NCBI RefSeq assembly: GCF_003522965.1
Contig: NZ_CP031513.1
Span: 1,736,001-1,800,000 of the forward strand
Length of the DNA: 64,000 bases
DNA from: Bombilactobacillus bombi
GTDB lineage: Bacteria; Bacillota; Bacilli; Lactobacillales; Lactobacillaceae
Reading direction: 5' to 3'
Shown: one piece after another, positions 1 to 64,000 of the stretch
Layout: each line of letters opens with the position of its first letter
How positions within the stretch are numbered: the first letter of the stretch is position 1
Translations under genes and position numbers: made by a program
The notes under the pieces: generated by a model
Database searches by the model: none
Told to the model about the DNA's origin: nothing
What the model saw: the letters and a program-made list of their open reading frames with translations, nothing else

Positions 1-1431
1 GAAGATTTGCAGGATAACTTGCGGCCCTTATTAGAATTAGGATTGGATTATCTTACTTTAGCTCGCAGTGGTAATACCTTATCAACGGGTGAATTGCAAC
101 GCATTCAATTAGCCAAAACATTGCGGACGCAAACGACAGGGGTGTTGTATGTTTTAGATGAGCCATCGATTGGTTTACATCCGGATAATGTCCAAGGCTT
201 AATTAAAATTTTGCGCAGTTTGATTGCTCAAGGAAACTCATTAGTGGTAGTAGATCATGATGTTGATATTATTGCTGCAGCTGATTGGGTTATTGAAATG
301 GGACCAGGTTCTGGTGCTGCTGGTGGTCAAGTGATTTGTCAAGGACCTCCCCAAGATTTAGTACATGATAAAAACTCATTAATTGGACCTTTTATTGCAG
401 GTACTGCTAATATTTGGCATGAAAAAGAAGCTTCACCCGCTCAGCAAACAATAACTACAGATTTTACAGTTGAAAATTATTTTAATTTAAAAAATGTTCA
501 AGTTAAGCTGCCTGAACAGCAAATTACAGCAGTTACAGGTTTTTCTGGAGCGGGTAAAACTAGTTTGATTTTAGATAGTTTGGTGCCGGCAATTAAGCAA
601 GCGTCGCTGCCCAAACAGGTTACTCAATTACAAACGAATTTACAACAAGTTATTAGTGTTGATGCTGCTCCTATTGGCAAGAATGCACGTTCTACAGTAG
701 CTACTTATACAAATATTATGGATAATTTACGGCAATTATTCGCTCAAGTATCATTAGCTAAGCAAAAGCATTATGGACGAGCTTATTTTTCTTACAATAA
801 TAAACAAGGTGCTTGTCCTAATTGTGGCGGATTAGGTACGATTACTTTAGACATTCAGTACTTACCTGATATGGAAGAAATTTGTCCAGTCTGCCATGGA
901 CAACGTTTTAATCCCGAAGTGCAGCAAATTAAATGGCACAATTTTAGTATTGTTGACCTCTTAGGCTTGTCAGTTCAAGAAGCATTACCGATATTTGTCT
1001 CAGTTCCAGCAATTGAGCGCCAATTAGTTTTGTTACAGCAGGTAGGATTAAGTTATTTACATTTGGGAGAAAGTACGCCCAGTTTATCCGGTGGAGAAGC
1101 ACAACGGTTAAAGCTAGTAAAACATTTAAATAAACAACAGGCACACACACTTTTTGTTTTTGATGAGCCGTCGGTTGGCTTACATCCACTAGATGTTCAA
1201 ACTTTATTAGGTGTGATTAATCGTTTAAAAGCTCAAGGAGCAACAGTAATTATTATTACGCATGATTTAGATATTATGGCTAATGCGGACTATTTGATTG
1301 ATTTAGGTCCCAAGGGTGGTAATCAAGGTGGCCAAATCATGGCTGCTGGCCAGCCGAAAAAATTAATCAAGCATCCAAATAGTTTGACTTTGCAATATTT
1401 AAAAAAGCATTGGTATAAATATCAACGTTAA
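1..1431 (+). CDS. UvrA-like ABC ATPase (5' end cut by window)
   Basis: The reading frame is open from base 1, so the true start lies outside the window. What remains is the end of the first ATPase half and the whole second half of a UvrA-family protein. Visible motifs are a first signature with STGE instead of SGGE, a DEPSIGLHP Walker B, then Walker A GFSGAGKTS, a zinc module with CPNC and CPVC pairs, signature SLSGGEAQR and a second Walker B FDEPSVGLHP. UvrA proteins load UvrB on damaged DNA. The visible part ends without a long C-terminal extension, and the altered first signature suggests a UvrA2/DrrC-like paralogue rather than the main repair protein. That distinction is inference, because the N-terminal half is not seen. 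Confidence 0.85.
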   Translation, partial: EDLQDNLRPLLELGLDYLTLARSGNTLSTGELQRIQLAKTLRTQTTGVLYVLDEPSIGLHPDNVQGLIKILRSLIAQGNSLVVVDHDVDIIAAADWVIEMGPGSGAAGGQVICQGPPQDLVHDKNSLIGPFIAGTANIWHEKEASPAQQTITTDFTVENYFNLKNVQVKLPEQQITAVTGFSGAGKTSLILDSLVPAIKQASLPKQVTQLQTNLQQVISVDAAPIGKNARSTVATYTNIMDNLRQLFAQVSLAKQKHYGRAYFSYNNKQGACPNCGGLGTITLDIQYLPDMEEICPVCHGQRFNPEVQQIKWHNFSIVDLLGLSVQEALPIFVSVPAIERQLVLLQQVGLSYLHLGESTPSLSGGEAQRLKLVKHLNKQQAHTLFVFDEPSVGLHPLDVQTLLGVINRLKAQGATVIIITHDLDIMANADYLIDLGPKGGNQGGQIMAAGQPKKLIKHPNSLTLQYLKKHWYKYQR

Positions 1432-1723
1432 CTTTCATAGATAGTTATGATACTGCTTTAAAAAAAGATATTCCGCAAGTATTTTCTAAAAAATAACGAG
1501 ACTATTAATATGAGTTGGTTTCCTCAAGATTAATTACCACCATTAACCTTAAAACTAACTACTTATCAGCAATTAAAACAATTATTTATCCCGGATAGTT
1601 TGCAGGTTGATTAATTGGGCCAGTAATTACAGTGCAATTGCAAAATAAAAAACGATAGAAACTGGAAAGTAAGTACTAAAACAGTTATAATTTGCTAGTA
1701 AAGATTTTGGGGAGGCAATTATT
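1432..1723. other. Intergenic region with possible decayed coding sequence
   Basis: No intact gene is visible. One forward frame gives two short protein-like stretches (about 1439-1494 and 1510-1615) broken by several stop codons, which looks like the residue of a lost gene. I could not identify its family. The ribosome site GGGGAGG of the next gene lies at about 1709-1715. Confidence 0.3.
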
Positions 1724-2221
1724 ATGCAAGCAGAAGCAGTGAGTCAAATGGCCGATTGGCTGGAAGATCATGTTTCCGAAATTGTAGCACACAAGACACA
1801 ACTTGACGTCCAAAAAATTAATGAAATCATTGATGATTTGGCCATTTTGCGACACCCAGTCCAAGAATATCTAACAATGACTGAAGAACAATATTATGAA
1901 AATGAATCTGATCATCAATTAACGCTGCAAAACGATAAACAACCATTAAGTAAATTACAAGATCGAGTTTTGGTGAACCATGTTGATGGCAGTTTTGCTA
2001 AGAGTGAAATAAACTTCACTTATAATCATGAGCATCCCTTTGCTGGTGGACAATACGATGTTACTAACGATTTGCATACAATTGAATATGCATTAGAAGT
2101 GATTGGCGCAGTGGTAGCTAACACAATTATGGCGGATGTGCGTAATAATTTATCTCAAGATGCAGTTTTATCAATTGCTCTGGCTGCAGCTGCTGTAGAT
2201 AATTGGCAGAAAAATAATTAA
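1724..2221 (+). CDS. Hypothetical protein, 165 aa
   Basis: The ATG follows a strong GGGGAGG site. The protein is acidic, mostly helical and soluble, with no signal peptide and no clear membrane segment. The last third (DLHTIEYALEVIGAVVANT, then an alanine-rich AALAAAAVDNW-like tail) looks like packed amphipathic helices. I do not recognise a family. It stands alone, 74 bases before an acetyltransferase gene that has its own ribosome site. The clean start signal and intact frame support a real gene. Confidence 0.65.
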   Translation: MQAEAVSQMADWLEDHVSEIVAHKTQLDVQKINEIIDDLAILRHPVQEYLTMTEEQYYENESDHQLTLQNDKQPLSKLQDRVLVNHVDGSFAKSEINFTYNHEHPFAGGQYDVTNDLHTIEYALEVIGAVVANTIMADVRNNLSQDAVLSIALAAAAVDNWQKNN

Positions 2222-2295
2222 CGAGTCTTTTTATTTGCAAAATAAAATTTAATTCGCTAATATATCCCGGTGTTTGTTTTTAGGAGGGATGTATT

Positions 2296-2817
2296 ATGCC
2301 AGTAACATATTTACGTAAAGTACAAGCTGATGAATTAGATCAAGTAGTAGAAATTATTGAAGAAGCCAAGCAAGTTTTAAAAGGACGGGGCGTAGATCTT
2401 TGGCAAGATGGATATCCCGACCAAAAGATTTTGCGTAGTGATATTCAGCGTGGAATTGCTTATTTTTTGATTAAAGATGATAAAATAGCTGGTGTAGCTG
2501 CTTTGGAAGACCAAGGCGAATCAAGCTATGATCAAATTGAAGATGGCAGTTGGAGTCCTAAGTCACAAGAACGCTATGCTATTTTTCATCGGGTTGCTAT
2601 TGCTCAAGGTCATCAAGGTGAAGGTCTAGCTTCTGTTTTTATTCAACATTTACTATCTATTACAGCTTCGTTGAATATTCATGATGTGCGAATTGATACT
2701 CATTTTGATAATTTAGCAATGCAGCATGTAATTGAAAAGAATGGTTTTCAAAAGTGCGGAACTATTCGGGATGCACAGCAACGTCCATTAGTTGCTTATC
2801 AACGTTTTATTCGCTGA
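2296..2817 (+). CDS. GNAT family N-acetyltransferase
   Basis: 173-aa protein of the usual length for a single GNAT domain, which transfers an acetyl group from acetyl-CoA to an amine. The acetyl-CoA loop is visible as QGHQGEG at residues 104-110, followed by a helix that ends before IHDVRIDTHFDN. The C-terminal VIEKNGFQKCG matches the usual GNAT beta6-alpha4 region. The start is supported by AGGAGGG eight bases upstream. The substrate cannot be told. A G-rich hairpin follows the stop, so it is probably monocistronic. Confidence 0.85.
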   Translation: MPVTYLRKVQADELDQVVEIIEEAKQVLKGRGVDLWQDGYPDQKILRSDIQRGIAYFLIKDDKIAGVAALEDQGESSYDQIEDGSWSPKSQERYAIFHRVAIAQGHQGEGLASVFIQHLLSITASLNIHDVRIDTHFDNLAMQHVIEKNGFQKCGTIRDAQQRPLVAYQRFIR

Positions 2818-2838
2818 GATAATCGTATGCTTAATATG

Positions 2839-2879
2839 GGGGGATTAGGACATGATTGTGTTCCAATCCCCTTATTTAT
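2839..2879 (+). terminator. Hairpin after the acetyltransferase gene
   Basis: GGGGATT (2840-2846) pairs with AATCCCC (2865-2871), with further inner pairs, and is followed by a T-rich stretch. It is a plausible but not strong intrinsic terminator. Confidence 0.55.
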
Positions 2880-2893
2880 AAAGAGGCTCAAAA

Positions 2894-4171
2894 ATGAGAT
2901 TTTGGGAATATTGTTTACAAACTATCTTATTTGCACCCTTACAAAAATTAGGTGTTTATCGAGTTAACTATTTACAACAACCATATTTATTACAGGTCAA
3001 AAAGCACCAACAAATTTTATGGCCACAAAATAGTACTGCAATTTATTATCGTAAACAGCATCAAGCACATTTTTTGCCAGTACCGGTGCAGATTCGCTTT
3101 TTTGTACAAGACTATTTGCGTAGTTTTAGCCAGTTTGTCAATACTTTAGTCGCAGACGAGGACTTGACCTTTGGTGTCATTACAGATACACATATTAAAT
3201 TTGCAGATAGTCATAGTTATTATGGATTTAATGGTTTGCAACATGTTGGAGAATTTTTAACCTTACCTAACTTGATAAACTTAGACTTTGTGGCTCATCT
3301 TGGTGATATCATTGATGGCAGTGATGATGCTGTGACTGATCGGCAATTATTAGCTCAAGTGAGTCGTTATTTTTCCCAGCAAACTGGCCCATACTTTATT
3401 ACTAAGGGTAATCATGATGACAATGATAAATATGATGAACATACTCTGAGTAAAAAGGCAACTTTTGCATCCCAGACTTTTGCAGATTTAATTTGGCAAA
3501 CAATGTATCAACAACGTTCGGTAAAGAAGTTATCGACAAATTATGGTGTTAGTTATTTTGATAAAAATAATTTGCGAGTTGTATTTATTAATACAACTGA
3601 CGTTCCGTATCACTTGGATGCTCAAGGTCGTAAAATTTATGACAGTAAGTTGACTTTAGCTGTTCGTAATGGACAACTAAAAGAAATTGTTCAAATCTTA
3701 CAACAGTCAGCAAATAAAAAAATTATTGTTTGTGGTCATGGTAATTTAATGACAGTAAAGGGCAATAATGGATTACAATATAATGGTAAAGCTGTTCATG
3801 ACTTGTTCAAAGCCTTCAATCAAGGATTAAGCGGTAGTCTGCAACATCAAGATAAAGATAATAATTTCTCCTTAGCGTTTGATTTTGATTTTACGAATAA
3901 TCTTTCTGGGCAAGTAGTGGCTTATATTTGTGGTCATCGCCATGTAGAAGATCAATTTAAAATTGACGGTATTCAATATATTTTATTAAATGTTTCAGCC
4001 TTAATGGGTAAAAAGCACAGTTTAACTACTAAATATAATCGTTCTTGGGATCGAAAAAAAGATGAAGTCAGTGAATTTGCTGGATATGTTATCAATCTTA
4101 ATCAAGCTGGTGATTCTTTAAAAGTTTTTGGCTATGGTGCTGCTACACCATTAAGAAAGTTTAAGATTTAG
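2894..4171 (+). CDS. Calcineurin-like metallophosphoesterase
   Basis: 425 aa. The metal-binding series of the calcineurin-like phosphoesterase superfamily is complete: D-x-H in ITDTHIKF, GDIIDG, GNHDD, CGHGN and GHRHVED. The first ~95 residues precede the domain and are unlike the core; they include aromatic, basic stretches and no clear signal peptide. Such enzymes hydrolyse phosphomono- or diesters with two metal ions, and the substrate here is unknown. The start follows AGAGG. The next gene (ATP-grasp) begins over 80 bases later, so joint transcription is possible but not shown. Confidence 0.85.
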   Translation: MRFWEYCLQTILFAPLQKLGVYRVNYLQQPYLLQVKKHQQILWPQNSTAIYYRKQHQAHFLPVPVQIRFFVQDYLRSFSQFVNTLVADEDLTFGVITDTHIKFADSHSYYGFNGLQHVGEFLTLPNLINLDFVAHLGDIIDGSDDAVTDRQLLAQVSRYFSQQTGPYFITKGNHDDNDKYDEHTLSKKATFASQTFADLIWQTMYQQRSVKKLSTNYGVSYFDKNNLRVVFINTTDVPYHLDAQGRKIYDSKLTLAVRNGQLKEIVQILQQSANKKIIVCGHGNLMTVKGNNGLQYNGKAVHDLFKAFNQGLSGSLQHQDKDNNFSLAFDFDFTNNLSGQVVAYICGHRHVEDQFKIDGIQYILLNVSALMGKKHSLTTKYNRSWDRKKDEVSEFAGYVINLNQAGDSLKVFGYGAATPLRKFKI

Positions 4172-4297
4172 TAGAGTTTGTGGAATTTATTTCGTCATTA
4201 ATAAACATTTGTTATAATAAGCACGGGATGCGAAGACCATTGTAAAGGAATGTGAACTCTTATCGATAATCAGAAAGTACCCCAATTTACTCCCATT

Positions 4298-5533
4298 TTG
4301 CTAGGTAGCGATATTAATGCTTATGGATTTGCTAGATCATTTTATGAATTAACCCATCAACCTGTTCAAGCTTATGCAGAAATGCCTTTGGCTCCTACTA
4401 AATATTCGCGTATTATTAATGTAAGTCTGCATGATGGTTTTGCGGAGGATCCTACTTTTATTGAAACTATGCGCTCCATTGCGCAAAAGTATACTAACCA
4501 TCCAGAGCCAGTGATTTTATTAGCAATGGGTGACGGTTATGCAGAGTTAATTGCTAAACACAAAGAAGAACTATCGCAAACTTTTATTTGTCCTTACGTA
4601 GACTATGAATTATTACGCCGTTTGAATAATAAAGAATCTTTTTACCAAATTTGTAATGAATATCATTTACCGCATCCCCAAACTAAGATTATTACTCGTA
4701 AGATGTATCAAGAACAAACTAATTTAACTGTGCCTTTCGACTATCCAGTAGCTTTAAAACCAGCTAATAGTGTAGAATGGCTCGATATTCATTTTGAAGG
4801 TCGTAAGAAGGCTTTTACTATCCATTCACAAGCCGAATTTTTAGATATTGTTGGTAAAATTTATGATCATGGTTATAAATCTGATTTAATTTTGCAAGAA
4901 TTTATTCCAGGTGATGATTCTCATATGCGGGTCTTAAATGCTTATGTTGATCAAAATCATCACGTCAAAATGCTATGTTTAGGACATCCTTTATTAGAAG
5001 ATCCTACACCGGCATCTATTGGGAATTACGTAGCTATTTTGCCTGAGTATGACCAAAAATTATATGACTTAATTCAGAAATTTTTAGAAGATATTGAATT
5101 TACTGGTTTTGCCAACTTTGATATGAAATATGATGATCGTGATCATGAATTTAAGTTGTTTGAAATCAATTTACGTCAGGGTCGTAGTAGCTTTTTTGTA
5201 ACGCTTAATGGTTATAATTTAGCCAAATATGTTATTGATGATTATGTTACAGGAACTCTAGAAGCACAATCAACCGTTTATGGTAATAAGAATAAAGCTC
5301 AACATCAATTATGGCTTGGTGTGCCTGTCCATGTGTTTAAAAAATATGCCTTAGAAAATCAATATAAAGAAGTAGCATTAGAATTATTACGTCAAGATCG
5401 GTATGGCACAACGGTTTTCTTTAAAGGTGATTTGGGGTTTAAGCGGTTCTTATTAATGAGTTATATGTTTTATCGCTATCGTGGCCGCTTTAAGCGCTAT
5501 TTTGAAGAGAATAAAGGTCAAGATTTCAAATAG
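4298..5533 (+). CDS. ATP-grasp carboxylate-amine ligase-like protein
   Basis: 411 aa from the first standard start codon (TTG 4298). The protein has the ATP-grasp layout: an N-terminal Rossmann-like part (GSDINAYGFARSF), the ATP-binding lysine region (VALKPANS), a glutamate-rich loop (LQEFIPGDD) and the metal site FEINLRQGRSS. Family members join a carboxylate to an amine using ATP; the substrates here are unknown. The 5' end is odd. The frame is open only from 4256. An ATG at 4250 in the same frame is followed at once by TGA. The nearest ribosome-like site, AAAGGA (4244-4249), is too far from TTG 4298 and would fit a non-standard start at 4259-4262. The start coordinate is therefore uncertain. 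Confidence 0.75.
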   Translation: MLGSDINAYGFARSFYELTHQPVQAYAEMPLAPTKYSRIINVSLHDGFAEDPTFIETMRSIAQKYTNHPEPVILLAMGDGYAELIAKHKEELSQTFICPYVDYELLRRLNNKESFYQICNEYHLPHPQTKIITRKMYQEQTNLTVPFDYPVALKPANSVEWLDIHFEGRKKAFTIHSQAEFLDIVGKIYDHGYKSDLILQEFIPGDDSHMRVLNAYVDQNHHVKMLCLGHPLLEDPTPASIGNYVAILPEYDQKLYDLIQKFLEDIEFTGFANFDMKYDDRDHEFKLFEINLRQGRSSFFVTLNGYNLAKYVIDDYVTGTLEAQSTVYGNKNKAQHQLWLGVPVHVFKKYALENQYKEVALELLRQDRYGTTVFFKGDLGFKRFLLMSYMFYRYRGRFKRYFEENKGQDFK

Positions 5534-5551
5534 TTAAAGGAGGTTGATATA

Positions 5552-6025
5552 ATGGAACCTGTTCAAGAACTAAAGGATTACCATGTTAATGAAATACATT
5601 TGCACAGAGTATTAGTAGCAATTGATGTTGATGACTTTACGTCTTCGGATCAAGCATTTGACTTTGCCTGCACCGTTGTCAAAAAGTCTAACGCAACATT
5701 AGGCATTGTTACAGTTGTAGAAAGTAAAGACATTAATGTGTTTGAGAGCTTGTCGCCAGCATCAATGGATGATAAGCGCTTAGAAGCATCACATGATTTA
5801 TTAACTTATGTCAAAAAAGCCAAGGAATTTGGCGTGGAAAATGTCAAACCAATCTTGACTGAAGGTACACCTAACAAGGCAATTTTAGAAGAAGTTATCC
5901 CAGATTTTAAACCTGATTTGGTAGTTGTGGGTTCTGAAACTAAAAAAGTTTTAGGAAAAACTATCGGTTCTCAAGCTGAAGGTATCATTGAAAAATCACC
6001 TGTTAGTGTAATTGTTGCTAGATAA
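5552..6025 (+). CDS. Universal stress protein, UspA family
   Basis: 157-aa single Usp domain. The N-terminal strand VLVAIDVDDF and the C-terminal ATP-binding pattern VVGSETKKVLGKTIGSQAEGI followed by SPVSVIVAR are typical of nucleotide-binding UspA proteins. The role is a cytoplasmic stress protein; the exact function is not known. It has a very strong AAAGGAGGT ribosome site and starts 18 bases after the ATP-grasp gene, so the two are probably one operon. A hairpin ends the unit. Confidence 0.9.
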   Translation: MEPVQELKDYHVNEIHLHRVLVAIDVDDFTSSDQAFDFACTVVKKSNATLGIVTVVESKDINVFESLSPASMDDKRLEASHDLLTYVKKAKEFGVENVKPILTEGTPNKAILEEVIPDFKPDLVVVGSETKKVLGKTIGSQAEGIIEKSPVSVIVAR

Positions 6026-6045
6026 TCTATTTTAATTATAAATTA

Positions 6046-6078
6046 AAGAAGCAGGACATTTTGTCCTGCTTCTTGTAT
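6046..6078 (+). terminator. Terminator after the universal stress gene
   Basis: A perfect 12-bp stem (6047-6058 with 6062-6073) with a short T loop. The following T stretch is short, so it is a moderate terminator. Confidence 0.65.
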
Positions 6079-6156
6079 ATCGTTTAGAGCTTTAATCAGT
6101 TTTAAACTAAGTAAAATGATAAAATATCTTCAATGAGACAATTAGGAGGCAAGATT

Positions 6157-8103
6157 ATGCAGCATAGAAATGCAAAGATTGTTGGTGGTACGGGTGATAC
6201 AACTCAAGGAGCAACTGCTAGCTATCAAGATAACCTATATTTAGCAGTAAATGGCAAATGGTTAAAAACGGCACAAATTCCAGCAGATAAATCCCGCACA
6301 GGTGGTTTTTCTGATTTAGCTTTAGAAATTGAAGAGCAGTTAATGCAAGATTTTGCGGACTTTGCAGCTGGTAAGAAAGAACCGAACAATGAGCTGATGT
6401 CTGTTGCAGTTAGTTTTTATCAAGTAGCCGCGAATTTTGAGCGTCGGAACCAAGATGGTTTTGCTCCAGCAACGGCCGGTTATACCGAGATTAAACAGCT
6501 TACGAACTTTGCTGATTTTATCCAACAAATTCCACAATGGCTGCAGAAAGGGTATCCATTACCATTTGGTATAGGTGTAGACGCAGATATGAAAGACACT
6601 AGTAAAAATGTTGTCTATGCTGCTGCTCCTGGTTTAATTTTACCTGATACGAGTTATTATCAAGATAATCCTAGTGGTGAGCAACTATTGCAAATTTATC
6701 AGCAAGTGGCTGTCCAATTATTAGAAAAAATTGGTGAATCACAAGAACAAGCTCAACAAATTGTCCACGGAGCTTTGGCTTTTGATCGTTCTTTAGTTGA
6801 TTATGTTAAAAGTGCTGAAGAACAAGCAGATTATGTCAAAATGTATAATCCCCAACTAATGGCTGACTTTGCTAGTCAAGGTGGTCAAATTGATTTTGCT
6901 AAATTGATTAATCAAGCAGTTGACGACCAAGTTGAACAGGTAATTGTCACAGAGCCACGTTATTATCAAAACTTTACTAAAATTGTAAATGCTGAGACTT
7001 TTGCCAACTTGAAAGACTGGTCTTTGGTTCAATATGTTTACAGTGCTAGTTCACTTTTAAGCCAGCAATTGCGTGAACTTGCTGGTCAATATAGCTTAGC
7101 ATTAAATGGTAGCCAAGAATTGTCAGCACCAATTAAGCAAGCGTATAATCTGACGAGTTCGACTTTTAGTGAAGTAGTTGGTAAATATTATGGAGAAAAA
7201 TATTTTGGAGCAAAAGCTAAATCTGATGTGGAACAGATGATTCACAAAATGATTAGTATTTATCAACAACGAATCAACAATAATACATGGTTAAGTACTG
7301 CTACGAAGCAAAAAGCAATTGTAAAATTAGATAAAATGGTACTGAAAATTGGCTATCCTGATCAGGTGAATCCCATTTATCAAAAATTTACAGTAGATAG
7401 TGATCAATCTTTATTTAGTAATGTCCAAGCTATTAATCAAATCATAATTGCGGATAATTTTGCTAAATATCATCGGCCGGTGGATCGTGATGAATGGGCA
7501 ATGCCGGGCCATTTAGTTAATGCTTGTTATGATCCTTCACGTAACGATATCACTTTTCCAGCAGCAATTTTACAAGCTCCATTTTATAGCTTAGAACAAT
7601 CAGCTAGTGCGAACTATGGTGGTATTGGAGCTGTGATAGCACATGAAATTTCGCACGGCTTTGATAATAATGGTGCACAATTTGATGAGTTTGGTAATAT
7701 GAATAATTGGTGGACAGACGAAGATTATGCAACTTTTAAAGAGCTAACGCAGGCAATGATTGATGAATTTGAAGGTGTTGAATTTGCTGGTGGTAAAGTT
7801 AATGGCAAATTAGTTGTTAGTGAGAATGTTGCTGATGCCGGTGGATTAAGTTGTGCTCTAGAAGCAGCTAAGTCTGAAGCTGATGTTGATTTGAAAGAAT
7901 TTTTTATTAATTGGGCACGGATTTGGCGGACTAAATCGACGCAACAATTGATGGAAATGTTTTTAAGTATTGATGTGCATGCACCATCACCTCTTAGAGC
8001 TAATGTGCAAGCACAAAATATGGATGACTTTTATACCACTTTTAATATTACTGAAAAAGATGGTATGTGGTTAGATCCCGATAAACGTGTTAATATTTGG
8101 TAA
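6157..8103 (+). CDS. pepO: M13 family metallopeptidase (PepO-like endopeptidase)
   Basis: 648 aa from ATG 6157, chosen because AGGAGG lies at 6144-6149; an upstream ATG at 6133 lacks a ribosome site. This is a zinc endopeptidase of the neprilysin/PepO family, which cuts oligopeptides. The zinc motif HEISH is near residue 496, ENVADAGG (third zinc ligand Glu) near 556, and the substrate-binding NACYDPS precedes them. Length matches the family. No signal peptide is visible, so it is probably cytoplasmic, as lactic PepO is. The C-terminus ends RVNIW; many M13 members end in a CxxW-type motif, so the cysteine is absent here, as is usual in intracellular forms. Confidence 0.92.
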   Translation: MQHRNAKIVGGTGDTTQGATASYQDNLYLAVNGKWLKTAQIPADKSRTGGFSDLALEIEEQLMQDFADFAAGKKEPNNELMSVAVSFYQVAANFERRNQDGFAPATAGYTEIKQLTNFADFIQQIPQWLQKGYPLPFGIGVDADMKDTSKNVVYAAAPGLILPDTSYYQDNPSGEQLLQIYQQVAVQLLEKIGESQEQAQQIVHGALAFDRSLVDYVKSAEEQADYVKMYNPQLMADFASQGGQIDFAKLINQAVDDQVEQVIVTEPRYYQNFTKIVNAETFANLKDWSLVQYVYSASSLLSQQLRELAGQYSLALNGSQELSAPIKQAYNLTSSTFSEVVGKYYGEKYFGAKAKSDVEQMIHKMISIYQQRINNNTWLSTATKQKAIVKLDKMVLKIGYPDQVNPIYQKFTVDSDQSLFSNVQAINQIIIADNFAKYHRPVDRDEWAMPGHLVNACYDPSRNDITFPAAILQAPFYSLEQSASANYGGIGAVIAHEISHGFDNNGAQFDEFGNMNNWWTDEDYATFKELTQAMIDEFEGVEFAGGKVNGKLVVSENVADAGGLSCALEAAKSEADVDLKEFFINWARIWRTKSTQQLMEMFLSIDVHAPSPLRANVQAQNMDDFYTTFNITEKDGMWLDPDKRVNIW

Positions 8104-58292: not shown

Positions 58293-59114
58293 TTAGTTGT
58301 TTCCATAATAATAATTAGCCGTTGCGCCGCCATCAATTAAAAAGGTAGAGCCTGTAATAAAGCTACCCTGAGGACTCATTAATAATTGAGCAACATTGGC
58401 TACTTCATCAGCAATACCAGGACGACCAGCTGGGGATTGGGCAAACATTTTTTTGTAGAAATCACCGCGAATACCGTTAAATTCATCCAAAGCTAAAGGC
58501 GTAACAATAATTCCTGGAGCAATCGCATTAAGACGAGCATTTTGTTGAGACCAATTTAAAGCTTCAGCCATTACTCGCTTTTCATTGCAACGTTTGGCTA
58601 ATTGATATGCGTGCAAGGTGTCTTTAATATTTTGTTCTTGTAAAAGTGCTAGGTCTAATAATTCTTCAGTTGGCGTAAGCGCTAATTGTTTATCTTCTTC
58701 TGGTGTCAAAGCTGGCATACGGTGTCCCGACTGGCTTGTAATAGTAACACCTACACCACCGGGAGCAATCACTTTGCCCACTTCTTCTAGCAAAACTGCA
58801 GTACCATAAAGGTCCACTTTTAAAATGGCAGCAATTGATGCTTGACTAGGTGACAAACCGGCACCATTGACCAAAGACATAATGGGACCGGATTGCTGGC
58901 CAATAGCAATCATATGCTGAATTGATTCACGTGAGGAAAGATCCATTATAATGGGTTCTACATCAAAGCCAGCTTCTTGCATTACTTGGCCAATTTTTTG
59001 TGCATTGTCAAAGTTTTTGTCACCTAAAATAATCTTTTGGTTGGTGCCCATTCTGCGGGCGATAGCCATACTAATTTGGCCTGCACCTACTACTAACATA
59101 ACAGGTTTATCCAT
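58293..59114 (-). CDS. Short-chain dehydrogenase/reductase (SDR)
   Basis: 273 aa. Nucleotide loop VVGAGQISMAIARRMG, the NGAGLSPS segment after strand 4, Ser in TSQSGHRM, YQLAK as YxxxK catalytic pair, and the C-terminal FLIDGGATANYYYG. These indicate a classical, active SDR. Third gene of the MerR-controlled operon, 17 bases after the gene before it. Confidence 0.9.
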   Translation of the reverse strand: MDKPVMLVVGAGQISMAIARRMGTNQKIILGDKNFDNAQKIGQVMQEAGFDVEPIIMDLSSRESIQHMIAIGQQSGPIMSLVNGAGLSPSQASIAAILKVDLYGTAVLLEEVGKVIAPGGVGVTITSQSGHRMPALTPEEDKQLALTPTEELLDLALLQEQNIKDTLHAYQLAKRCNEKRVMAEALNWSQQNARLNAIAPGIIVTPLALDEFNGIRGDFYKKMFAQSPAGRPGIADEVANVAQLLMSPQGSFITGSTFLIDGGATANYYYGNN

Positions 59115-59131
59115 GAATTATAATGCTCCTT

Positions 59132-59752
59132 TTAATAGACAGGGCGTTTTGCGCCTTGTGTGTTAGGATCAGCAATCCCGATACTTTCATTGACAAAAAG
59201 ATCAGGATTGTTAATTATTTGTAAAATCACGTCAGCAATACTTTGACGTGAGCCAGAAACTCCATTATAAGATTGATCTTTGGTAGTAATTGTATATTTA
59301 ACTTCGTTGCGATCATTGAGCCAAGGCAAGCGCAGGGTAGTATATTGAAGTCCAGATTCAGCTAAGAGTTGATCAGAATTTATGGCTGCTGGTAGTCCAG
59401 ATAGTACTTGTTCATGATTCCAACGGCCAAACTCTCCAGGAACTTCATTATACAATCCTAAAATATTAGTAAAAATAACACGTTGGACTTGGTGTTTTTT
59501 CATTGCTGCAATTACATTCTTCGTAATGACATTGTTAGAAGTATGATCAACCACACCGACGAAGACCAAATCTTGACCAGCTACTGCCTGCTCAACTTCT
59601 AAAATAGTTGCTTGCTTTTGTAAATTGGCTAAACGATTTTTATTACGTAATCCCAAAGTTAAATCGATATCTTGGAATGCTGGTTCATTTAATAAACGTT
59701 GTTCAACAATTTGTGCAATTTGGCCATTGGCTGCTAAAATGAGTAGTTTCAT
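59132..59752 (-). CDS. NAD(P)-binding SDR-like protein (paralogue 1)
   Basis: 206 aa. Atypical SDR of the NmrA/SDR-a5 type with nucleotide loop AANGQIAQIVEQRLL, RVIFTNILGLYNEVPG and YTTLRLPWLNDRNEVKY. It is clearly related to the product of the next upstream gene (NEVPGEFGRWN vs NEIPAAIGEEGN; shared SRxSIADxIL near the end). Second gene of the operon. Confidence 0.85.
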   Translation of the reverse strand: MKLLILAANGQIAQIVEQRLLNEPAFQDIDLTLGLRNKNRLANLQKQATILEVEQAVAGQDLVFVGVVDHTSNNVITKNVIAAMKKHQVQRVIFTNILGLYNEVPGEFGRWNHEQVLSGLPAAINSDQLLAESGLQYTTLRLPWLNDRNEVKYTITTKDQSYNGVSGSRQSIADVILQIINNPDLFVNESIGIADPNTQGAKRPVY

Positions 59753-59775
59753 TATTGTCTCCTTTATCGATACTA

Positions 59776-60384
59776 TTAGGCTCGATTAATCCCAAGACTC
59801 TCACGACTTCCGAGTTGAGAATCATGGGCTAAACGTAAAATTAAATCAGCAATACTCTTGCGAGAAACATCATGACCACCAAAAGGCTCGCCTTTTTGGG
59901 TTATTTGGTAATGTATGTCAGTACCATTGTCGAACCATCCAGGACGAATCACAGTATAATTCAAACTTGAAGCTTCAATAATATCTGCAGCTTGGCGATA
60001 ATTCTTGAGAAGGGGATTATGCTGCAAATTACCTTCTTCGCCAATTGCAGCAGGAATTTCATTGTAAATTCCCATGGAACTGATAAAAATTAGACGTCGA
60101 ATATTCATTTGGGTCATTTGCGTTACTAGAGATTGTGCCATTTGGGGTAAGTCACCACTTAAGGCGGCAACAACCACATCTTGTCCTTGTAAAGCTGCTT
60201 GTAGTTGCTGAGAATTAGTCACGTCACCAGTTACTAAATGTTCACGTTGCGGATTAATCTGGGTTTGTAATGGTGTTAGATTTCTTGCCATTAAGGTTAA
60301 CTGATCATCTGAATTCTCTAAAAAATATTGTCGTGTAACTTGTCCAAGTGATCCAGTTGCACCAATAATTAAGACCTTAGTCAT
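59776..60384 (-). CDS. NAD(P)-binding SDR-like protein (paralogue 2)
   Basis: 202 aa. Nucleotide loop IIGATGSLGQVTRQYF, then RRLIFISSMGIYNEIPA and VIRPGWFDNGTDIHY. It lies first in the operon directly behind the MerR-type promoter. Tandem paralogue of the product of 59132-59752, probably from an old duplication. Reductase or NAD(P)H-sensing functions are both possible. Confidence 0.87.
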   Translation of the reverse strand: MTKVLIIGATGSLGQVTRQYFLENSDDQLTLMARNLTPLQTQINPQREHLVTGDVTNSQQLQAALQGQDVVVAALSGDLPQMAQSLVTQMTQMNIRRLIFISSMGIYNEIPAAIGEEGNLQHNPLLKNYRQAADIIEASSLNYTVIRPGWFDNGTDIHYQITQKGEPFGGHDVSRKSIADLILRLAHDSQLGSRESLGINRA

Positions 60385-60410
60385 TGAGAATCTCCTTTCT
60401 ATAAGCTACG

Positions 60411-60441
60411 ATAATAGTGTATCCCCTTATACTTACTGTAA
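60411..60441 (-). promoter_or_regulatory. MerR-type promoter of the oxidoreductase operon
   Basis: On the minus strand TTACAG (-35) and TATTAT (-10) are separated by 19 bases, the over-long spacer that MerR-family activators correct. The spacer holds a dyad GTAT-N6-ATAC. This is strong evidence that the divergent MerR protein activates the operon. Confidence 0.8.
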
Positions 60442-60472
60442 TGCAAGCAAAATTGAAGCCAAAGATGATTCG

Positions 60473-60501
60473 ATTATGATAGGATTAAGAACTATCATAA
60501 T
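60473..60501. promoter_or_regulatory. Perfect 10-bp inverted repeat near merR
   Basis: ATTATGATAG (60473-60482) and CTATCATAAT (60492-60501) with a 9-base centre. It could be an operator for another regulator or a weak terminator, since AATTTTT follows. Confidence 0.5.
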
Positions 60502-60550
60502 AATTTTTCCTTGATAAGGGTTTAGACTAGAATTAAAGGAGAACAAATAA

Positions 60551-60985
60551 ATGACTTATACAATACAAGAAGCAGCTGATAAAATGGGGTTAACTGCCTA
60601 TACTTTGCGTTATTATGACAATCATGGCATGTTACCTTATGTCAAACGGGATGAAAATAATAACCGGATCTTTGATGAAGTAGATTTAGAGTGGATTCAT
60701 ATTATTATTTGTATGCGTAAAACCGGTATGCCCTTAAAGAAGATTCAGCATTATTTACAATTAGTCGTCCAAGGAGAACAGACAGTTCCCGAACGTTATC
60801 AGATTATGTTGGAGCAGCAACAACGAACCCTAGCTGAAATTAATGAACTCAACCAACATTTAATGACAATAAATAAAAAAGTATCCCATTATGCAGATAT
60901 CTTAATTAATCAAAAGCCTGACACATATGTGCCCTCAAACATTAGTTCTCTAAAATCTACCAATCATCAGCAAACAGCTAATTAA
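60551..60985 (+). CDS. MerR-family transcriptional regulator
   Basis: 144 aa. Winged helix YTIQEAADKMGLTAYTLRYYDNHGMLPYVKRDENNNRIF, then a coiled dimer helix with EQQQRTLAEINELNQHLMTINKKV. There are no cysteines in a metal-binding arrangement, so it is likely to respond to organic or redox stress (AdhR-like group). Divergent from four dehydrogenase genes. Site AAAGGAG. Confidence 0.92.
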   Translation: MTYTIQEAADKMGLTAYTLRYYDNHGMLPYVKRDENNNRIFDEVDLEWIHIIICMRKTGMPLKKIQHYLQLVVQGEQTVPERYQIMLEQQQRTLAEINELNQHLMTINKKVSHYADILINQKPDTYVPSNISSLKSTNHQQTAN

Positions 60986-61047: not shown

Positions 61048-62037
61048 CTAGTTAACTACATGATCACAAGGTTGGTCTTGAATTAGCTGAACAGCATCAT
61101 CCAGACTAATATCAACCATATTTTGCACTGCAATGTTGGTGTAAAAACCAATATGAGGTGTCAAAATCACATTGTCCATTGCCCGCAATTTTTTTAGTTG
61201 TTCACTAGGTAGTTCTTTACCACGTAAATCCACATTGAAAAAGTTCTCTTCACCAGTTAAGGTATCTAAGGCTGCACCAGCAATTTGTTGTTGTTCTAAA
61301 GCGTTAATTAAGGCAGCAGTATCAATAACTGGTCCACGACATTCATTAATAATATAAGCTGTTGGCTTCATTAAGCTCAAGGCTTTGGCGTCAATTAAAT
61401 TTTTCGAGGTCTCGTTTAAGTCCACATGTAAACAAATAACATCGGATTCTTGTAAGACTTCTTCTTTGGTCTTAAAAGTTAAGATATCATCTAAGTCATG
61501 ATTAGGCTTGGTATCGTTGGCGATGACATTTGCTCCTAAAGCATGAAAGATTTGCGCAGTAGTACTGCCAATACGGCCAGCACCAATAATTCCGATTGTC
61601 AGGGAATGAAGTTCAGTGGCTTGCAATCCTTGCCAACGAAAATCTTGCTGCTTCATGCGAGCATCAAAGAGTGGCAATTTACGAATTAAACGCATGGTAT
61701 GTGTGAGTGCTAATTCAGCCACTGAATGGGGAGAATATGCAGGTACATTGCTGACTTTGAGATTATTTTCAGTAGCTAAGGGTAAGTTCACAACATCAAA
61801 ACCAGCGGTTCGAGTAGTAAGCTGTTTGAAGCCCAGTTCTTGTAATTTGGGATAAACATCATCTTCAATTTGACTGCGCTGTTGTGTAACGACTCCATCA
61901 AAACCGGCTAAACGATCAACTGTATCAGAATGTAATTCCCAATCAGTGGTTTGAATTTCAATTTCAGGATGACGTGCTTGCCATTGCTTAATTGCAGGTA
62001 ATTCATCATCACGAACAGTTAATAAGATAATTCTCAT
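61048..62037 (-). CDS. D-2-hydroxyacid dehydrogenase
   Basis: 329 aa, D-lactate/D-hydroxyisocaproate dehydrogenase type. NAD loop IIGAGRIGSTTAQIFHALG, the NECRGPVIDTAALI arginine, glutamate in TLTGEENF and histidine in LTPHIGFYTN are visible. Its ATG directly follows the aminotransferase stop (TAAATG), with AAGGAGG inside the end of that gene, so the two are translationally coupled. Together they could turn amino acids into 2-hydroxy acids such as phenyllactate or indolelactate. This is inference. Confidence 0.92.
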   Translation of the reverse strand: MRIILLTVRDDELPAIKQWQARHPEIEIQTTDWELHSDTVDRLAGFDGVVTQQRSQIEDDVYPKLQELGFKQLTTRTAGFDVVNLPLATENNLKVSNVPAYSPHSVAELALTHTMRLIRKLPLFDARMKQQDFRWQGLQATELHSLTIGIIGAGRIGSTTAQIFHALGANVIANDTKPNHDLDDILTFKTKEEVLQESDVICLHVDLNETSKNLIDAKALSLMKPTAYIINECRGPVIDTAALINALEQQQIAGAALDTLTGEENFFNVDLRGKELPSEQLKKLRAMDNVILTPHIGFYTNIAVQNMVDISLDDAVQLIQDQPCDHVVN

Positions 62038-63222
62038 TTAATGACCTCCTTTTTGTTGGCGAATATTTTGGACGTATGCTTGCATTAATTGCATTCCCCG
62101 TTGAATCTCTTCCATGCTGGTAGCATAGCTTAATCTTAAATAACCACTGCCACCAGGTCCAAAGTATGATCCTGGGACTGCTGCCACTGGACCGTTTTGG
62201 GCTAAATCACGAGCAAAACGTTCATCATCTTGATCTAAATCTTCAGGAATTTGTGCAAAAATATAGAAAGCACCCCCTGGAGTTGCACACTTAAAGCCCA
62301 TTTGCTCCATTTGTTCTACAATGTAATCACGGCGTTTTTGATATTGGGCGCGCATTGGTAATGCATCATCTATCCCATTTTTGAAAGCTTCTTCAGCTGC
62401 ATCTTGAGTGACAGTGGCAGCACTTGTAATCGTGAATTGGTGAATTTTACCAAGCTCGTCTGTGATGGCTTGTGGAGCACACATTAAACCAATTCTCCAA
62501 CCAGTCATAGCATGCGATTTTGACACACCAGTAATTAGAATTACTTGATCTTTGAGGCTCTTGGATAAGCTAGCGTGAGGTCCGTTGTAATTTAATTCGC
62601 TATAAATTTCGTCACAAAGAACGAAAATTGGTTGATCTCTTAAAACATCACCTAAAGCATCTAATTCACTTTGGGAATAAGTAACACCTGTAGGATTACT
62701 TGGATAATTTAAGATGACTAAGCGTACACCTTCGCCAGCTTTCTCGATGGTGTCTTGCAGCATTTGGGGAGTCAACTTAAAGCCGTTGCTGGAAGTATCA
62801 ACTAAAATAGGTTCACCGCCTGCCAAGACAGTATCTGCAATGTATAACGGGAATGTTGGTGTCGGAATAATAACTTTATCACCAGGGTTTAAAACAGACA
62901 TGACAGCAGTATAAATTCCTTCAGTTGCTCCTTCAGTCACAATGACTTCATCAGCAGTATAATGCTGGTCATATTTTTGAGCTAAGAAGTTAGCCGCTGC
63001 TTGGCGTAAACCGGCAGTCCCATTGCTAGGAGCATAGTGAGAATGGTTGGCTTGAATACTAGCGATGGCAGCTTCTTTGATATGTTCGGGAGTATTGAAG
63101 TCGGGTTCGCCTAAGGTGAAGTTAACGATGTTTGGAATTTGATTAGCGAATGTCGAAAAAGCTAAAATAGCTGACGGCTTCACTTGACTAAGTTGACGAT
63201 TGAGATATTGATTCATTTGCAT
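62038..63222 (-). CDS. PLP-dependent aminotransferase, class I (aromatic/aspartate group)
   Basis: 394 aa from the ATG ending at 63222, nine bases after AAAGG; an ATG at 63231 touches that site. Motifs: FTLGEPDFNTP, NYPSNPTG, DEIYSELNY, and the PLP lysine in TGVSKSHAMTGWRIG. Lactobacillar members are annotated AraT or PatA. It is the first gene of a two-gene operon behind a long leader with competing hairpins, so expression is likely set by transcription termination. Confidence 0.92.
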   Translation of the reverse strand: MQMNQYLNRQLSQVKPSAILAFSTFANQIPNIVNFTLGEPDFNTPEHIKEAAIASIQANHSHYAPSNGTAGLRQAAANFLAQKYDQHYTADEVIVTEGATEGIYTAVMSVLNPGDKVIIPTPTFPLYIADTVLAGGEPILVDTSSNGFKLTPQMLQDTIEKAGEGVRLVILNYPSNPTGVTYSQSELDALGDVLRDQPIFVLCDEIYSELNYNGPHASLSKSLKDQVILITGVSKSHAMTGWRIGLMCAPQAITDELGKIHQFTITSAATVTQDAAEEAFKNGIDDALPMRAQYQKRRDYIVEQMEQMGFKCATPGGAFYIFAQIPEDLDQDDERFARDLAQNGPVAAVPGSYFGPGGSGYLRLSYATSMEEIQRGMQLMQAYVQNIRQQKGGH

Positions 63223-63239
63223 GATATTCATCCTTTCCT

Positions 63240-63508
63240 AAATAAAAAGACCCAACAGATTAATTGTGAAAATCTGTTGGGTCTTGGCCAAATTAGTTTA
63301 TTAGGTGACCCATCAGATTTTCTAAAACCTGCTAGGTCGAATTCGCTCAAGTAAATAAGCTTTCGTTCCTACAGGTGTCAAACACTTGTTAGCGTGTTTG
63401 CACCCATAGATTCAGAGTACAAACACTATCTAAAGAAACGAAAGTAATAATAGGCATTCAATTGTCGAATTTGAAGTTTTAACATTATCTGGGCTCCTGA
63501 CTTATTGA
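63240..63508 (-). promoter_or_regulatory. Structured attenuator leader of the aminotransferase operon (riboswitch-like)
   Basis: About 270 bases of leader with three mutually exclusive hairpins near its end. Terminator: 63271-63285 pairs with 63247-63261, then a T run. Antiterminator: 63307-63322 pairs with 63268-63283 (15 of 16). Anti-antiterminator: 63324-63338 pairs with 63307-63321. Upstream there is a folded domain: 63437-63444 with 63360-63367, a bulged 11-bp hairpin at 63373-63405, TAGAT/ATCTA at 63407-63432, and a 6-bp closing stem. I find no T-box bulge motif and no lysine or SAM core, so the class is unknown. Confidence 0.75.
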
Positions 63509-63516
63509 ATAGTTAT

Positions 63517-63546
63517 AATCTAATCCAACTACAGGGTAAATGTCAA
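63517..63546 (-). promoter_or_regulatory. Promoter of the aminotransferase operon
   Basis: On the minus strand a perfect TTGACA (63541-63546) is followed by TAGATT at 18 bases. The -10 is weak, and TATAAC a little further down is an alternative. The transcript would start about 285 bases before the gene. Confidence 0.5.
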
Positions 63547-63726: not shown

Positions 63727-63759
63727 ACAAATTACAAATTAAACAAAGGAATGATGCTT

Positions 63760-64000
63760 GTGTCAATCTGGCAGAAAATTACACAAAAAGCCGATGTTCA
63801 ACAATATTTGCAAGAAGACGTGCAATTCGAAAAAACACTGCGCGCGAAAGATTTGATGGCTCTGGGGATTGGGGCAGTAATTGGAACGGGAATCTTTATC
63901 TTGCCCGGCACAGTAGCTGCGACTGTCAGTGGTCCGGGAGTTATCTTAAGCTTTTTAATCGCAGCAATTGTGTGCGCGACTGCTGCAATGTGTTATGCAG
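63760..64000 (+). CDS. APC-family amino-acid permease (3' end cut by window)
   Basis: Only the first ~80 residues are present; the frame is open to the window end. GTG 63760 is chosen because AAAGGA lies nine bases before it; ATG 63751/63754 are too close. The sequence LMALGIGAVIGTGIFILPG is the first membrane segment of the amino acid-polyamine-organocation family, in its cationic-amino-acid-transporter-like form (ALGIGAVIGTGIF). Divergent from the aminotransferase operon, which suggests a shared amino-acid theme. Confidence 0.85.
   Translation, partial: MSIWQKITQKADVQQYLQEDVQFEKTLRAKDLMALGIGAVIGTGIFILPGTVAATVSGPGVILSFLIAAIVCATAAMCYA

Follow-up and report, generated by a model that had tools for sequence, protein, structure and literature searches.

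The leader ahead of an aminotransferase operon near the end of the window (the whole 64,000-nucleotide stretch of the Bombilactobacillus bombi contig NZ_CP031513.1 analysed here) is best explained as a ribosome-mediated transcription attenuator that senses tyrosine and phenylalanine supply as charged tRNA, a reading to which we assign a probability of about 0.92. The leader is read on the minus strand, as are the two genes that it would regulate, identified by domain matches as a class I/II aminotransferase (62038-63231; PF00155, within the NCBIfam PRK07309 group though below its cut-off) and a D-2-hydroxyacid dehydrogenase (61048-62037; PF02826/PF00389). The initial annotation had described an attenuator of unknown class. 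Transcription attenuation stands, as does the lack of a named functional description for the class, but riboswitch, T-box and protein sensing are unsupported. Its suggestion of an amino acid or keto acid as ligand holds insofar as the signal appears to be amino-acid related, but its reader is most likely a ribosome on Tyr/Phe codons. The mechanism is a textbook one; the attenuator family and its reach are new to the literature searched.

At the 5' end of the leader, a promoter-like TTGACA-18-TAGATT (63517-63546) agrees with 10 of 12 consensus positions, a consensus match only, and the transcript would start near 63510. The initial annotation had missed the leader ORF that follows, together with its Shine-Dalgarno sequence (AGGAG, 63494-63498, read from the sequence). 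This ORF of 19 codons (63485-63426; ATG TTA AAA CTT CAA ATT CGA CAA TTG AAT GCC TAT TAT TAC TTT CGT TTC TTT AGA TAG) is supported by sequence and conservation and would encode MLKLQIRQLNAYYYFRFFR*, with the run Tyr-Tyr-Tyr-Phe-Arg-Phe-Phe. Its end overlaps the first arm of a structured upstream domain, the 5' arm A (63444-63430) being the Tyr/Phe codon run itself. When the region was dinucleotide-shuffled, an ORF that starts with ATG, spans 8-40 codons and has six aromatic codons within seven arose in 3 of 5000 cases. An ATG in frame is present in each of the 116 leaders examined, with a Shine-Dalgarno match in 104, and Phe or Tyr accounts for 74% of the codons in the seven-codon motif. A short ORF with start codon and Shine-Dalgarno sequence, predicted to be translated, is thus present 5' of the terminator, and its Tyr/Phe codon run matches the aro, transporter and aminotransferase genes downstream.

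At the RNA level, six segments alternate between two states, A:B, C:D and E:F (stop) or B:C and D:E (read-through). Segment A (63430-63444) holds the regulatory codons and pairs with B, as indicated by same-leader pairing tests and covariation. The domain also contains a1 (63415-63426), a hairpin arm with a2 by pairing in a 22-leader alignment; a2 (63394-63405), whose partner in pairing tests is a1 or a3; and a3 (63374-63385), an alternative partner of a2 with strong pairing and weak covariation. For B (63360-63375), pairing tests, covariation and masked folding point to A as partner without a ribosome and to C when a ribosome is stalled on A. Pairing tests likewise define C (63324-63341, partner B or D), D (63307-63322, partner C or, as antiterminator, E) and E (63268-63283, terminator 5' arm or antiterminator partner of D). 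The terminator 3' arm F (63249-63261) is seen by pairing in the alignment, and the U5 tract (63244-63248) in the sequence.

The terminator (63285-63247) has a 15-bp stem with the core GACCCAACAGATT/AATCTGTTGGGTC, followed by U5 at 63248-63244. It lies where the initial annotation had placed it, and so do its rival, the pairing of strand 63322-63307 (GAAAATCTGATGGGTC) with 63283-63268 (GACCCAACAGATTTTC; -24.0 kcal/mol with flanks), and the second rival, between the same strand and 63338-63324 (GACCTAGCAGGTTTT; -17.6 kcal/mol). The compact multi-stem domain with complementary ends that it had seen further upstream is real, closed by pairing of 63444-63430 with 63375-63360. A link that escaped it is that arm B also pairs with 63341-63324, by which the upstream domain is tied to the switch.

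In the proposed mechanism, RNA polymerase would transcribe the leader and a ribosome would translate the 19-codon peptide. With ample Tyr- and Phe-tRNA the ribosome would reach UAG and depart, allowing A:B and then C:D to form and leaving E free for F, with termination at 63244. With scarce Tyr- or Phe-tRNA it would stall on UAU UAU UAC UUU CGU UUC UUU and cover A; B:C would then form, D would be freed to pair with E, no terminator would arise and both genes would be transcribed. Free folding of 63510-63244 gives A:B, C:D and E:F, whereas a ribosome mask on the Tyr codons, with F not yet made, gives B:C and D:E, and D:E remains in the full leader. By this comparison of free and masked folding, a stalled ribosome would bring about read-through, and unhindered translation would end in termination. 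If the mask is placed with the ribosome at the first Phe codon, the terminator persists in the equilibrium fold predicted for the full leader, so kinetics must matter. Stalling itself and the sign of the response may be expected by analogy with classical systems and from homology with the leaders of biosynthetic aro operons.

The his attenuator of Enterobacteria has a six-segment layout, A-F, with the same alternation of A:B, C:D and E:F against B:C and D:E and with leader codons in A. The Bacilli leader differs in having Tyr/Phe instead of His codons and extra nested a1/a2/a3 hairpins, and no sequence relation was seen between the two. In E. coli pheL-pheA, a Phe-rich leader peptide likewise governs aromatic amino acid genes through termination, but with Phe codons and four segments, compared with mixed Tyr/Phe codons and six or more segments here. 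Firmicutes were long considered to have little leader-peptide attenuation. Before the His case that it reported itself, a survey of 2010 had no examples from beyond Proteobacteria and Actinobacteria, and it presented 'regular' leader peptides in Firmicutes, for hisS, as a notable finding (PMC2965389). His attenuators have been described in some Firmicutes lineages (PMC9413887). A predicted Phe-coding uORF attenuator ahead of Acholeplasma aroF (uORFC-13-1) also concerns an aromatic gene outside Proteobacteria, but in another lineage and with another motif (PMC8632094). In the literature searched, no description was found of the leader peptide of the Tyr/Phe attenuator family.

At gathering score, no Rfam family matches anywhere in the window. 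A permissive search, however, places RF02863 ('sRNA_2410') over 63442-63244 with 28.6 bits, compared with a gathering cut-off of 61; the comparison with Rfam that the initial annotation had proposed therefore leads to a known family only below its cut-off, with homology established through a separate model (R2, below). Other permissive matches at the locus (RF04312, PK-HAV, miRNA) all lie on the terminator hairpin and were taken as chance. The attenuator leader is the sole RF02863 match at E<=0.01 in its own genome, and 108 of 198 genomes of the order have matches. In the relatives fetched, the match starts within leader peptide codons ending QLNN[YF][YF]FSYFR* or close variants. The first gene 3' of the 75 relatives scanned encodes an ABC substrate-binding protein (PF04392) in 49 cases and shikimate dehydrogenase in 19, followed by DAHP synthase (3), SBP_bac_3 (2) and chorismate synthase (1). 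Because model R1 contains the attenuator locus itself, it gives no proof of homology, and R2 was therefore built without the locus, from 29 RF02863-type leaders of aro and ABC-transporter genes that include no aminotransferase-linked leader. R2 finds the attenuator leader with 52 bits (E 6.3e-10 for the whole genome, 8e-11 for the searched set) and also recovers most other aminotransferase leaders tested. Judged from these scores, the aminotransferase leader is homologous to the RF02863 family, though below the RF02863 cut-off, and the Rfam orphan 'sRNA_2410' is the same element as the attenuator. With R1, further members come from a small number of other Bacilli, in which FYFSYF* stands ahead of DAHP synthase.

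Covariation was assessed in 22 homologous leaders (fold and permutations), a 49-leader core alignment and 116 leaders (A:B energy). It is present in these orthologous leaders, and the pairings are not accidental, an outcome that the initial annotation had left to such a comparison. In the 22 leaders, the terminating fold (A:B, a1:a2, C:D, E:F) is paired in 87.9% of cells, a share that drops to 31-52% if one partner is displaced by 1-3 columns; 99 cells are changed on both sides, and 0 of 500 shuffles scored as high. The antiterminator D:E is paired in 75.1% of cells (32-51% after displacement), with both sides changed in 11 of 15 pairs. Permuted partners, a test that removes phylogeny only in part, were as good in 0 of 5000 trials for each of A:B, B:C, C:D, D:E and E:F in the 22 leaders, and the control pairings that the model does not need (D:F, A:E and C:E) had no significance. 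When two clades were taken apart, B:C gave p 0.004 in one and p 0.55 in the other. Over the 116 leaders, A:B has an energy of -14.7 kcal/mol with its own partner and -10.2 with permuted partners (sd 0.26), and one base pair of A:B takes the forms AU, UA, CG, GC, GU and UG in the 49-leader core alignment. Covariation and masked folding together indicate that occupancy of the codon segment would decide between terminator and antiterminator.

The codon table bears on how the signal would be read. An arrest peptide of the TnaC/SpeFL kind, in which the nascent chain senses free amino acid instead of charged tRNA and an excess induces, would be in keeping with the well-conserved C-terminal motif F-x-[YF]-F-[R], with regulated genes that can work catabolically, and with the single Trp codon in the constant WQSR* end of a Trp sister class. 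However, RF02863-type leaders encode Ser by AGC in 77 of 77 cases and, with one exception, Arg by AGA or AGG (almost only AGA), which is what conservation of the helix A nucleotides would predict; the constant residues are thus explained by nucleotide pairing. Moreover, aminotransferase leaders have W, R, Y or G (codon 3) and R, H, M or Q at those positions, and in the examples printed B is altered to match codon 3. Codon 0, which lies outside helix A:B, is Tyr in 61 and Phe in 50 of 116 leaders, and codon 4 is Tyr in 77 and Phe in 39. From codon table and pairing together, the aromatic codons appear to be retained as codons and the other residues to track the RNA. This pattern fits charged-tRNA sensing and speaks against an arrest peptide or an aptamer; we regard the arrest peptide as unlikely, although it is the strongest of the alternatives.

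A metabolite riboswitch of the kind that the initial annotation implied, here with an aromatic amino acid or a precursor as ligand, would account for a compact conserved upstream domain coupled to a terminator. A similar proposal has been made for the gbs2033 element of Streptococcus agalactiae, which precedes an ABC transporter and occurs also at E. faecium aroFBC-tyrA; RNA-seq of the streptococcal element detected both short transcripts and read-through, and the authors suggested new riboswitches that would recognise aromatic amino acids or their precursors (PMC4448216). As described there, with no leader peptide mentioned, the element occupies the same positions as RF02863 relatives, and it probably belongs to the same attenuator family, a placement made from the published description. 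Against an aptamer in the Bombilactobacillus leader, the most conserved 5' part is the codon run predicted to be translated, aromatic codons are kept even where pairing does not require them, A:B exchanges base pairs freely, and no invariant unpaired core of aptamer type was seen in the alignment. A riboswitch is accordingly held to be improbable, somewhat more so than an arrest peptide.

RF02863 itself is filed as a stand-alone small RNA, after sRNA_2410 of E. faecium, which RNA-seq and Northern blotting revealed as a small RNA with two transcripts (PMC5593968). Leaders of the RF02863 type have homologous A, a1, a2, a3 and B segments in common with the aminotransferase leader, which lies under the RF02863 cut-off, and a leader motif, ..QLNNYYFSYFR*, but the family was filed without a leader ORF. 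Its relatives lie a short distance upstream of genes for the aromatic pathway or for transporters, in the same orientation, and the 'sRNA' model begins within the last part of the leader ORF and halts at the attenuator, which makes an independent small RNA very improbable. A T-box, although a common tRNA-sensing device for amino acid genes of Firmicutes, is scarcely credible, as the Rfam T-box model (bulge, specifier stem) has no match at any reported score; the absence of T-box, lysine-riboswitch and SAM-riboswitch classes, asserted in the initial annotation, agrees with Rfam, which yields no known riboswitch at either threshold.

The only other credible R2 match in the host genome (876373-876476 of its contig, 28.6 bits, E 0.0015) is a paralogous leader whose predicted peptide, MTCCLLKKVYYFDFAYFK, ends YYFDFAYFK and whose arm GACUUUGCUUA pairs with UAGGCAAAGUC. 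It precedes an aro operon (leader and operon at 442-498 and 679-6751 of locus L264, about 876340-882650 of the contig) that is headed by a gene for an MFS transporter fused to chorismate mutase and also encodes chorismate synthase, EPSP synthase, prephenate dehydrogenase and shikimate kinase; prephenate dehydratase was not detected in the host genome. The genome's only PF04392 gene is preceded, about 320 nt upstream on the minus strand, by MINSNVQLNARWQSR*, with a single Trp codon (locus L265, contig 1148000-1151000). Leaders ending ..LNxRWQSR* occur ahead of this ABC transporter in Lactobacillaceae (L263, L265, L266-L294), with the TGGCA motif of the WQSR end in 28 of 30 loci compared, and the RF04312 'trpB motif' covers the RNA just behind the Trp leader peptide (60.1 bits in L271, cut-off 59). 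Like many RF02863 relatives, the RF04312 element precedes the same transporter type, and it is sister-like, but it has one Trp codon and no Tyr/Phe run, and R2 does not find it. It looks like a Trp-specific attenuator, and is perhaps of the gbs1262 type (PMC4448216).

We think it likely, if with less confidence than for the locus itself, that aromatic amino acid genes of Lactobacillales share a leader-peptide attenuator family whose specificity has shifted by codon exchange (Tyr/Phe in RF02863-like, Trp in RF04312-like elements). If so, two classes so far filed as an sRNA and a motif, with similar elements suspected as riboswitches, would belong to one device doing a job that in Firmicutes usually falls to T-boxes. 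Across lactic acid bacteria and related families, attenuation appears to govern how aromatic amino acids are synthesised, taken up and transaminated; it accounts for the orphan Rfam sRNA and gives the proposed riboswitch another reading.

In at least seven Lactobacillaceae genera and in Sporolactobacillus, orthologues of the aminotransferase (identity of about 51% or higher) are preceded by Tyr/Phe(/Trp)-cluster leaders; the genera include Bombilactobacillus, Weissella (MKLRNVSQLNNWNYNFRFFM), Liquorilactobacillus (..RKLNSFYYFWFFHECL), Lactiplantibacillus (MSLPLNQPKRSTSFYFWYFR), Lentilactobacillus, Loigolactobacillus and Sporolactobacillus itself (MIKSGKLQLNNFYYYFGFFR). Paralogous aminotransferases of streptococci and enterococci (45-50% identity) have neither leader nor dehydrogenase. 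The D-hydroxyacid dehydrogenase follows at nearly all leader-bearing loci, the exceptions being one leader without dehydrogenase (L025) and, conversely, L048 and Bifidobacterium with a dehydrogenase and no leader of the attenuator family. Pairs of aminotransferase and D-hydroxyacid dehydrogenase are usually thought to convert aromatic amino acids to hydroxy acids. Induction of the operon by starvation is unexpected because a D-hydroxyacid dehydrogenase is more often assigned to catabolism. The attenuator predicts that aromatic starvation induces the pair, a response that would suit a role of both enzymes in making or salvaging Tyr/Phe.

The Bifidobacterium pair (L064, L070, L074) has an aromatic leader ORF of its own, MQGTRFTYWWHGFDL* (about 3804-3851 in L064), with a strong Shine-Dalgarno sequence and no sequence relation seen to the attenuator family, with which it is perhaps convergent. 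In the window, a divergent amino acid permease starts at 63751-64000 on the plus strand, cut by the window end, with BcaP as best NCBIfam match, below cut-off; its upstream region is common with that of the attenuated operon. On the other side, 58293-60985 holds a MerR-type, NmlR-like regulator (60551-60985, plus strand) divergent from genes for small NAD(P)-binding and short-chain oxidoreductase-like proteins.
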